From contig JAICSS010000025.1 of the NCBI GenBank assembly GCA_025936755.1, forward strand, positions 1 to 33,595: a stretch of DNA of 33,595 bases. Direction: 5' to 3'. This DNA comes from Solirubrobacterales bacterium. GTDB lineage: Bacteria; Actinomycetota; Thermoleophilia; Solirubrobacterales; 70-9. The notes below the pieces were generated by a model, which did no database searches, was not told the origin of the DNA, and was given only the letters and a program-made list of their open reading frames with translations. The position numbers were made by a program, and so were the translations under genes. Shown piece after piece: positions 3,623 to 17,952 of the stretch. The stretch's first letter is position 1; each line of letters begins with the position of its first letter.

Positions 3623-3705
3623 GGCGGCGCTCGATCGAGGGCCGGACCGCCCCGATCCGCCGGCCGGCTGATTCGGTTCGGGACAACCGGGTAGGCATGT
3701 GCCAC

Positions 3706-4137
3706 ATGGGATTGAAGCCGCTGTTCGCCGCTGCCCTGGTCGCCCTCTCCCTCGGCCTTGTCGCTTGCGGGAACAGCGGCTCCGATTCCACCTCGGAAGC
3801 CGAAACCGCTGCCACGCAGGAATCCGGCGGGGAAGCCGAAGCCGAAACGACCGAAAGCGAACCGGCCCCGAGCGGCGAGGCGGCGAAGTCCGAAAAGGTC
3901 GAAATCGTCGAATTCGCCTACCAGCCGGACCCGGTCGTGGTCCAGGTCGGCGGCAAGGTGATCTGGCAGAACCAGGACACCGCCCCGCACACGGCGACCG
4001 CCGACGACGGCAGCTTCGACACCGGAACGATCGAGAAAGGCAAGCTCGGCTCGGCGACGTTCAAGGAAGCCGGCACCTTCACCTACCACTGCGAAATCCA
4101 CCCGACGATGCACGGCACCGTCGAAGTGGTCGAATAG
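3706..4137 (+). CDS. Cupredoxin (plastocyanin/amicyanin-like) lipoprotein
   Basis: A 143-residue protein with a lipoprotein signal: M-G-L-K-P-L-F, a hydrophobic stretch and lipobox L-V-A-C with Cys21. A Ser/Glu/Ala-rich linker (about 22-68) follows, then a single cupredoxin domain. The type 1 copper ligands are all present: H95 in A-P-H-T-A, then C129, H132 and M135 in H-C-E-I-H-P-T-M-H-G. It should be a membrane-anchored, copper-binding electron carrier outside the cytoplasm. ATG 3697 is an alternative start that would add Met-Cys-His; 3706 gives the more normal signal peptide. Nearly every glutamate codon is GAA, unlike the neighbouring cytoplasmic genes, which use GAG. The redox partner is unknown; a second cupredoxin and a multicopper oxidase lie at 15747-17952. 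Confidence 0.85.
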   Translation: MGLKPLFAAALVALSLGLVACGNSGSDSTSEAETAATQESGGEAEAETTESEPAPSGEAAKSEKVEIVEFAYQPDPVVVQVGGKVIWQNQDTAPHTATADDGSFDTGTIEKGKLGSATFKEAGTFTYHCEIHPTMHGTVEVVE

Positions 4138-15746: not shown

Positions 15747-16349
15747 TTGCACAGCAAGCTTTCCCGCCGCGCCCGGATGCGGGCACTGGTTCTCGCGGTC
15801 TCGGCGGCCGCCCTCACCCTCGCCTTCGTCGGCACCGCCGCCGCGGCGACCCCGACCGGCGTCACCGACCAGATCTCGATCGAGCTGACCAAAGGCAAGC
15901 TGAAGTTCGTCGGACCGGAAACGGTCACCGTCGGCGACCAGCTCGAAATCGTCAACAAGACGAACCCGCGTCAGGTCGGTCCCCACACCTTCTCGCTGGT
16001 CACCAAGGGCTCTCAGCCGAAGACCCCGAAGGCGCGCAAGAGGTGCTTCACCCCGAAGCACATCTGCCTGGCGATCGCGCTCTGGCACGGCTTCAACCCG
16101 AAAACCGAACAGATCACGAAGAACCCGGCCAAGGCCGGCCCCGCCGGCTGGAGCACGGCAGGGAACGCCACCGGCAAGAAGGGCGACTCGTGGTTCAGCG
16201 GTGAAAAGAAGGGCGGCCACATCTCCCAGGAAGTCACCGCCGAAGCGGGCACGACGCTCTACTACATGTGCGCCGTCCACCCGTGGATGCAGGGCAAGGT
16301 GACCGTCGTCGCTCCGGTGGTCCCGCCGCTGCCCACTCCGACCAGCTAG
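15747..16349 (+). CDS. Secreted cupredoxin-domain protein
   Basis: A 200-residue protein with a Sec signal peptide (basic start, hydrophobic A-L-V-L-A-V-S-A-A-A-L-T-L-A-F-V-G-T, cleavage likely near A-A-A-A-T at about 34). The cupredoxin domain carries type 1 copper ligands H80 (V-G-P-H-T-F) and C175, H178, M181 (M-C-A-V-H-P-W-M-Q-G). Between the first His and the Cys lies an unusually long, Lys-rich insertion of about 60 residues with two extra cysteines (C100, C107) that may form a disulfide. The start is TTG 15747, with GAAAGG upstream; ATG 15777 is possible and would keep the signal. Glu codons are mostly GAA. It directly precedes a multicopper oxidase and may donate electrons to it. Confidence 0.82.
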   Translation: MHSKLSRRARMRALVLAVSAAALTLAFVGTAAAATPTGVTDQISIELTKGKLKFVGPETVTVGDQLEIVNKTNPRQVGPHTFSLVTKGSQPKTPKARKRCFTPKHICLAIALWHGFNPKTEQITKNPAKAGPAGWSTAGNATGKKGDSWFSGEKKGGHISQEVTAEAGTTLYYMCAVHPWMQGKVTVVAPVVPPLPTPTS

Positions 16350-16476
16350 CAACACGGCTGGGCAGTCCTCAGCACCGCACCGCCGCTTCGGGCGCCGAAC
16401 TTTCCTCGGCGCCCTCGGCGGCGGTGCGCTCGCCGTCCTCCTTCCCCTGCGGGGGAGGAGCGGCGGCCCGCTGCCG

Positions 16477-17952
16477 TTGAGCGCGGAGCCGCCGCCGGCG
16501 CTGGCGGCGGCCCCCTTCCGCTCGCGGCTGCCGATCCCGCCGGTCCTCCGCGACGACCACATCCGGATCCCGATCCGCGAGGCCGAGCAGCAGATCCTCC
16601 CCGGCCCCAAGACCAGGCTCTGGACCTTCGGGGGCAGCTTCCCCGGGCCGACGATCCGCCGCCGCGCCGGCCAGCGCACCCGCGTCACCTTCCACCACGA
16701 GCTGGGGGAGAAGGCCGGTGAGCTCTCGGTCCACCTCCACGGCGGCCACAACCGAACCCAGTTCGACGGCTACCCGGGCGGGCTGACCAAGCGCCAGCCG
16801 CTCTCCGCCTTCTGCCGCATCCCGCGGGGGCTCTCCGCCCGCGAGTCCGGCAACGAGTTCCTGCTCGAGCCGGGCGGGAACAGAACCTACGTCTACGACC
16901 TGATGGAGGACGGGCGGCCCGAACGCGCCGCGTTCCAGTGGTACCACGACCACCGCCTCGACCGCACCGCTCTCCACAGCTGGAAGGGGCTGGCCGGGAT
17001 GTGGATCGTCGACGACGCCTTCGAGGAGGCGCTGGCGCTGCCCGAGGGCGACCGCGACCTGCCGCTGATGATCTGCGACCGCACCTTCGACCGCCGCAAC
17101 CAGCTCACCGACCCCTTCCAGGGCCAGCGGCCGCCCGCCGACGGGATCCTCGGCGAGGCCGTCCTCGTCAACGGCGCCTACCTGCCGCACCACCGCGTCG
17201 ACGCCTGCCGCTACCGGCTGCGGATCCTCAACGTCTCCTCCTTCCGCAGCTACAACCTGCGGCTCTCCAACGGGGCGCCGATGCTGCAGATCGCAACCGA
17301 CAGCGGGCTGATGCCGAAACCGGTGCGCCGCCGCGAGATCCTCCTCGGCCCGGCCGAGCGGGTCGAGGTGATCGTCGACTTCGCCGCCGCCCGCGGCGAG
17401 ACCGTCGAGCTGCGCAGCAGCAAACGGCACGGCGGCCGCAACCCCCTTGGCGCCCATACCTACGGCGGCACCCTGATGCAGTTCCGCGTCGGCGCCGGCC
17501 GCGTTACCGACCGGACCCACGTCCCCCGGCGCCTGCGGCCGCTGCCCCACTGGACGCGCAAGGCGACCCGCAAACCGGACAAGCGCTGGGAGATCACGAT
17601 CGGCGGCTTCTTCAAAACCACCTGGCGGATCAACGGCCGCACCTTCAACCCCGCCCACGTCGAGGCCTTCCCGAAGCTGAACACGACCGAGACCTGGGAG
17701 ATCGTCAACAAGACCAACGTCGCCCACGTGATGCACCTGCACCACACCGACTGGTACCTGCTCGAGCGCAACGGCAGGAAGCCGCCCAGCTACGAAGACT
17801 GCTTGAAGGAGACCTTCTTCGTCTATCCGAACGAAAAGATCCTCCTCGCCGGCCACTTCTCCGACTACACCGGCAAGTTCGTCGTCCACTGCCACATGCT
17901 CGACCACGAGGACCATGGCCTGATGAGCCAGTTCCAGGTGGTCCGGGCCTAA
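16477..17952 (+). CDS. Multicopper oxidase (CotA/bilirubin oxidase-like); true N-terminus probably upstream with a Tat signal
   Basis: From TTG 16477 the frame gives 491 residues with three cupredoxin domains and all copper-binding clusters: H-L-H-G-G (86-90), W-Y-H-D-H (H157, H159), H-V-M-H-L-H (H417, H420, H422) and H-C-H-M-L-D-H-E-D-H-G-L-M (471-483; axial M483). It should oxidise phenolics, metal ions or a cupredoxin with reduction of O2 to water, outside the membrane. The same frame continues upstream into a convincing Tat signal (R-R-T-F-L-G-A-L-G-G-G-A-L-A-V-L-L, about 16396-16446), yet no ATG, GTG or TTG occurs between the in-frame stop at 16300 and 16477. The TTG start would remove the Tat signal, so the annotated start is doubtful. 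Glu codons are mainly GAG. Confidence 0.88.
   Translation: MSAEPPPALAAAPFRSRLPIPPVLRDDHIRIPIREAEQQILPGPKTRLWTFGGSFPGPTIRRRAGQRTRVTFHHELGEKAGELSVHLHGGHNRTQFDGYPGGLTKRQPLSAFCRIPRGLSARESGNEFLLEPGGNRTYVYDLMEDGRPERAAFQWYHDHRLDRTALHSWKGLAGMWIVDDAFEEALALPEGDRDLPLMICDRTFDRRNQLTDPFQGQRPPADGILGEAVLVNGAYLPHHRVDACRYRLRILNVSSFRSYNLRLSNGAPMLQIATDSGLMPKPVRRREILLGPAERVEVIVDFAAARGETVELRSSKRHGGRNPLGAHTYGGTLMQFRVGAGRVTDRTHVPRRLRPLPHWTRKATRKPDKRWEITIGGFFKTTWRINGRTFNPAHVEAFPKLNTTETWEIVNKTNVAHVMHLHHTDWYLLERNGRKPPSYEDCLKETFFVYPNEKILLAGHFSDYTGKFVVHCHMLDHEDHGLMSQFQVVRA

Follow-up and report, generated by a model that had tools for sequence, protein, structure and literature searches.

How is a gene translated when its reading frame encodes an apparently intact export signal and no canonical start codon stands ahead of it? 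The question is raised by a stretch of 33,595 nucleotides of Solirubrobacterales DNA (contig JAICSS010000025.1 of assembly GCA_025936755.1; hereafter the window), in which a multicopper oxidase gene lies directly downstream of a cupredoxin gene and encodes a twin-arginine translocation (Tat) signal upstream of its first canonical start, TTG 16477. The original prediction had drawn attention to this signal and had offered four ways out, namely a rare start codon such as ACG 16354, a base error, a true frameshift upstream, and coupling with the cupredoxin gene ahead of it. Our analysis combines the first and the last of these options: at odds of roughly two to one, we consider that the Tat-exported three-domain oxidase is translated from ACG 16354 by termination-coupled reinitiation, a reading that rests on the comparison of sequences across related genomes.

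An oxidase frame without a canonical start before the Tat motif

The oxidase frame opens after the stop codon at 16300-16302 and closes at TAA 17950-17952. A complete in-frame listing of the start-like codons downstream of the former stop comprises ACG 16354, CTG 16447, CTG 16471 and TTG 16477, thereby confirming the earlier statement that ATG, GTG and TTG are all missing between 16300-16302 and 16477. From the same stop to the Tat motif the frame of the window is also free of CTG, ATT, ATC and ATA, which leaves ACG 16354 as the sole near-cognate codon ahead of the motif. The cupredoxin gene ends where it had been said to end, at TAG 16347-16349, so that a gap of 4 nucleotides separates its stop from the ACG, and translation of the oxidase frame across the Tat region gives HRRFGRRTFLGALGGGALAVLL, identical to the peptide first reported and in frame upstream of TTG 16477.

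Conservation of the ACG codon

The host group consists of uncultured bacteria. Searches with the oxidase protein returned any match in 10 of 12 genomes of the genus, matches in 40 of 50 genomes of the family and, at E <= 1e-60, matches in 27 of 232 genomes of the order; a scan of GTDB contigs with the same protein gave 16 loci, mostly the same records. We compared 18 loci, that of the window genome (G000) included, and found a cupredoxin match in all 18 loci searched. For 17 of them, all except G035, the junction itself was read; they comprise a clade made up of the window and nine relatives (G000, G002, G003, G004, G005, G007, G008, G009, G046 and G047) and seven outgroups. In the oxidase tree this clade forms a single branch with a support of 100/99 (nine rows, without G004, since a contig end leaves only the first part of its oxidase gene).

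In nine of the ten clade genomes the cupredoxin stop is followed, 2, 3 or 4 nucleotides on, by an ACG that shares the frame of the Tat signal; this lends weight to the rare start codon among the options first raised. Across the 27 linker columns the three ACG columns are kept in 9, 9 and 10 of the ten genomes, and in columns 3-22, the ACG triplet aside, no run of three columns is kept in nine of ten. Between ACG and the first conserved Tat arginine, eight genomes have a spacing of nine codons; the window has ten. Six relatives (G002, G005, G009, G047, G007 and G008) share with the window the absence of ATG, GTG and TTG from the region of the cupredoxin stop to the twin arginines. Among the outgroups, ATG stands upstream of the Tat signal in five (G069, G067, G072, G207 and G036) and TTG in G037; the oxidase of G048 has no canonical start nearby, and a CTG there overlaps the cupredoxin TGA as CTGA (L022:1600-1603).

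That the conserved stretch is translated is suggested by its pattern of change. Mean pairwise differences at the three codon positions amount to 0.163, 0.114 and 0.274 in the Tat part and to 0.192, 0.164 and 0.305 in the mature part, both with a coding-like excess at the third position that the linker hardly exhibits.

The inverted repeat and the proline-rich tail

Two further elements, a perfect inverted repeat within the Tat codons and a proline-rich tail on the cupredoxin, formed no part of the original prediction. Perfect arms of 9-10 base pairs occur in all ten clade genomes. As a background, a perfect stem of at least 9 base pairs within 100 nucleotides is found in 1.7% of 817 segments of the window, in 3.4% of 1083 segments from 15 loci and in 5.9% of 376 segments taken after the stops of long frames. 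The arms are nearly invariant and the spacer varies. Constraint beyond that on the protein is apparent here: the eight columns RGRRFLGA rank first of 54 windows for codon identity in excess of amino-acid identity (z 4.5, 8 genomes), and of the fourfold sites, 8 of 9 do not vary across codon columns 10-21, as compared with 26 of 116 over the mature part (Fisher p 1e-4). Compared with synonymous shuffles, the local fold reaches z values of -1.8 to -4.3 in eight of eight genomes; in the window itself, 5.5% of the shuffles fold as well. Stems of 9-13 base pairs, likewise perfect and of other sequences, lie between the cupredoxin stop and the oxidase ATG in four of the seven outgroups (L049, L050, L051 and L052), three of these four belonging to one genus.

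The possibility that the repeat is a dispersed element was rejected for G000, where the exact-arm pattern occurs at one place only. No second copy with up to 3 mismatches is present in the window, and extra copies are found at other places in G006 and G007. Contig ends of G002 (the starts of C14 and C12) and of G004 (the end of C124) fall within the first part of the oxidase gene, near the GC-rich repeat, which is perhaps an assembly effect.

As for the tail, it contains two to five prolines in all ten clade genomes and none or one in the seven outgroups, a literal PP being found in six of the ten, the window included. Being confined to one clade, this feature counts as one evolutionary event or few.

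Probable termination-coupled reinitiation and its rivals

Under the reading that we favour, a ribosome would terminate the cupredoxin at TAG 16347, remain on the message and reinitiate 4 nucleotides downstream at ACG with initiator tRNA and without the help of a Shine-Dalgarno site, ACG presumably being decoded as methionine and served by this reinitiating ribosome rather than by fresh initiation. A review of such coupling (PMC5972666) calls reinitiation near stops frequent in prokaryotes and describes the coupled reinitiation of caliciviruses as insensitive to the start codon, and the present junction resembles the systems covered there in that the start lies a few nucleotides from the upstream stop and, being ACG, would call for a similarly relaxed choice of codon. 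The same source reports, after Kozak, that a downstream stem raises the use of poor starts in eukaryotes. In our case the hairpin may hold or gate the ribosome, and the proline-rich tail may slow termination, copper or export perhaps being the cue, in the manner of the CutF-CutO system discussed below. The stem begins 33 nucleotides after the A of ACG (36 in the window), farther downstream than an initiating ribosome usually covers; its outer extension comes closer by a few nucleotides. A role as a clamp is therefore only possible.

Several observations weigh against this reading. At the place of ACG, G007 has CAG, its sole near-cognate codon being a CTG at -11, and three other genomes could start canonically: G003 at a TTG at +18 and G046 at a TTG at -14 from the cupredoxin stop, and G004 at an ATG at +28, five codons ahead of the twin arginines. 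The ten genomes form one clade, so that part of the conservation is owed to shared descent. Hecht et al. (2017) reportedly found that ACG initiates very weakly in E. coli, and the fold predicted for the window has the ACG itself paired. A Shine-Dalgarno-like tetramer is absent at all nine ACG sites, as it likewise is in the relatives that start with ATG; bacterial work on reinitiation, as reviewed in PMC5972666, stresses this motif, and the bacterial cases described there depend on it. Finally, no pair of the hairpin covaries, and an RNA hairpin can therefore not be told apart from a DNA palindrome.

The latter point bears on a rival that concerns the inverted repeat only and takes it for an operator in the DNA or an attenuator of transcription within the gene, unrelated to the ACG start. 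We regard this as a serious contender, somewhat short of an even chance. Besides the lack of covariation, the nearly invariant arms with their varying spacer would suit a protein-binding site or an attenuator, and the strong intergenic stems of the outgroups are what attenuators might look like; the same stems, different in sequence, nevertheless sit in a similar place, and the repeat is single both in G000 (exact arms) and in the window (up to 3 mismatches), which means that there is no second site at the cupredoxin promoter.

A quite unlikely explanation of the start itself is that initiation near the stop is independent of the start codon, or non-canonical and placed elsewhere, and that ACG is kept for some other reason. 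It draws on G007, which does without ACG, on the CTGA overlap of G048 and on a comparable junction in another gene. Among the 30 loci that the Tat profile brought up in the genus, 28 have an in-frame ATG, GTG or TTG before the arginines, some of these loci being spurious, and the two that have none are orthologs of each other (L076:1417-1510 in G008 and L090 in G011), in which a CTG overlaps the upstream TGA, again as CTGA. They encode what we take to be a PotD-like lipoprotein, with relatives at E <= 1e-80 in 4 of 50 family genomes. Against such a codon-independent restart stands the fact that ACG, in nine of ten genomes, is the sole codon kept in an otherwise variable linker.

The remaining rivals fare much worse. 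A frameshift or stop readthrough yielding a cupredoxin-oxidase fusion, for which no start would be needed, can appeal to the oxidase frame of the window being open through the junction from -44 nucleotides relative to the cupredoxin stop. The relation between the two frames, however, is +1 in most genomes, +2 in G005 and 0 in G003, so that a shared frameshift or readthrough does not explain the missing start; moreover, the TAG of G003 lies in the oxidase frame itself, the C-termini of the cupredoxins are unrelated in detail, and a Tat signal within a Sec-exported fusion makes little sense. We accordingly disfavour the upstream frameshift put forward earlier and deem any fusion very improbable. 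Hardly any more credible is a true start at TTG 16477 with the Tat-like stretch left untranslated, whose one advantage is that TTG is a canonical start codon. Orthologs beginning at that place without a Tat signal, named in the original prediction as the finding that would speak against it, do not turn up: the Tat residues are conserved in ten genomes, whose differences in this stretch follow a coding pattern, there is no conserved canonical start around oxidase residue 42 in the relatives compared, and Tat export is common for laccases. As to a sequencing or assembly error that deleted an ATG, the GC-rich repeat and the nearby contig ends of G002 and G004 might invite the suspicion, yet the same absence, with ACG in the same place, recurs in separately assembled genomes of related species, which in effect refutes the base error once considered.

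Comparison with the cutF-cutO system

One of the known systems closest to this locus is the cutF-cutO pair of Rhodobacter capsulatus, in which, according to PMC9973294, a stem-loop ahead of a Tat-exported multicopper oxidase is under the control of an exported copper protein that is still nascent and has a proline-rich end. Common to both loci are an exported copper-binding protein upstream with a proline-rich C-terminus, a stem-loop near the downstream start and a Tat-exported multicopper oxidase downstream. In contrast to the short DUF2946 protein with CxxxC found there, the upstream protein here is a cupredoxin of 200 residues; the stem sits past the start, among the Tat codons, where it shields no Shine-Dalgarno site; and the proposed start codon is ACG. 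When the features that define the CutF system are taken in turn, a proline-rich motif is present in the last 15 residues of the cupredoxin (PP in the tail of the window), the cupredoxin is not a DUF2946/CutF-like protein of <150 residues with CxxxC, no CxxxC occurring in its translation, and no Shine-Dalgarno-like tetramer lies upstream of ACG for a stem-loop to shield. The cupredoxin-oxidase pair is thus not a member of the CutF system, and the resemblance is one of gene order and parts; by analogy, hairpin and tail are possible components of a switch.

A broader proposal, which we hold to be rather unlikely as a whole, is that the ribosomes of this lineage can restart at near-cognate junction codons (ACG, CTG) missed by gene callers, and that the cupredoxin-oxidase junction acts as a copper switch in which the tail sets a pause and the hairpin in the Tat codons gates ACG. 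Loss of IF3 was considered as a cause of relaxed start choice and rejected, as 11 of 12 genus genomes have it; in the nine loci read, a GTG close to the N-terminus of its frame is conserved, and the initiation machinery therefore looks ordinary. A search of the literature by title, with most subscription papers outside its coverage, found no bacterial gene with a natural ACG start. If true, natural conservation of ACG as the start of a bacterial protein gene would mean that the choice of start codon can relax under translational coupling, and that genuine signal peptides can be lost at junctions of this kind when annotation is automatic; should hairpin and tail be involved, the locus would offer a second, independently built translational link from an exported copper protein to a laccase.

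The oxidase and other features of the locus

The product is best read as a working Tat-exported enzyme of the laccase type, judging from its sequence. Pfam Cu-oxidase_2 and Cu-oxidase_3 are matched (PF07731, 69.5 bits, cut-off 20.4; PF07732, 51.1 bits, cut-off 21), the copper-ligand motifs of multicopper oxidases, HxHG, HxH, HxxHxH and HCHxxxH, are present in all eight aligned rows, and the relatives in the PDB are CotA and bilirubin oxidase. Like laccases of the CueO, CotA and bilirubin oxidase type, the protein has three domains and the four copper motifs; it nonetheless stays below the cut-off of each of the NCBIfam models for CueO, PhsA, FtsP and CopA, scoring 204.3 against 525 bits for the CueO equivalog PRK10965.1, of which it is not a member. 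By the usual count the axial place of its type 1 (T1) copper is a leucine (HCHxxxHEDHGL; HCHMLDHEDHGLM, window 17880-17952), as in all eight aligned oxidases, and a stricter copper pattern requiring methionine there fails in all eight rows; a non-methionine axial residue goes with high-potential laccases. By eye, the N-terminus displays the twin-arginine motif followed by a hydrophobic stretch; in a genus-wide scan with the Tat profile TIGR01409 the place of the oxidase is not among the matches listed at E <= 1.

Features of the cupredoxin-oxidase junction (positions in the window)
Feature	Position	Strand	Basis
Exported cupredoxin, 200 residues, TTG start, TAG stop; upstream partner	15747..16349	+	Open reading frame, weak amicyanin match, signal-peptide-like N-terminus by eye
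Proline-rich C-terminal tail of the cupredoxin, VAPVVPPLPTPTS	16308..16346	+	Beyond the domain match ending at residue 187
Cupredoxin stop codon TAG	16347..16349	+	Junction reading
Proposed oxidase start codon ACG	16354..16356	+	Only near-cognate codon before the Tat motif; ACG in 9/10 genomes, 2-4 nucleotides past the stop
Three-domain multicopper oxidase (laccase/CueO-like), 532 residues from ACG	16354..17952	+	Pfam, copper-ligand motifs, PDB matches
Variable n-region linker of the Tat signal	16357..16383	+	First, second and third codon positions each differ by about 0.5 (pairwise mean)
Tat signal core, RFGRRTFLGALGGGALAVLLPL	16384..16449	+	Kept in each of the 10 genomes
Perfect inverted repeat GGGCGCCGA-N7-TCGGCGCCC, predicted hairpin; outer stem about 16377-16425	16390..16414	+	Within the Tat codons
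TTG, first canonical start in the frame, unlikely to be the true one	16477..16479	+	Would remove the conserved Tat signal; relatives have no conserved canonical start at this place

The amicyanin match of the cupredoxin is weak and covers residues 163-187 of 200, and no Pfam family is found in this protein. When the frames of the window were compared with syntenic pieces of G002, G047, G003 and G005, 23 frames came out as conserved, a set blurred by the presence of shadow frames; a Pfam search of ten frames flagged in this way, and a reading of two of them, brought up no second clear start-less gene in the window, without amounting to a clean control. A second small cupredoxin-like gene, lipoprotein-like in character, lies at about 3697-4137.
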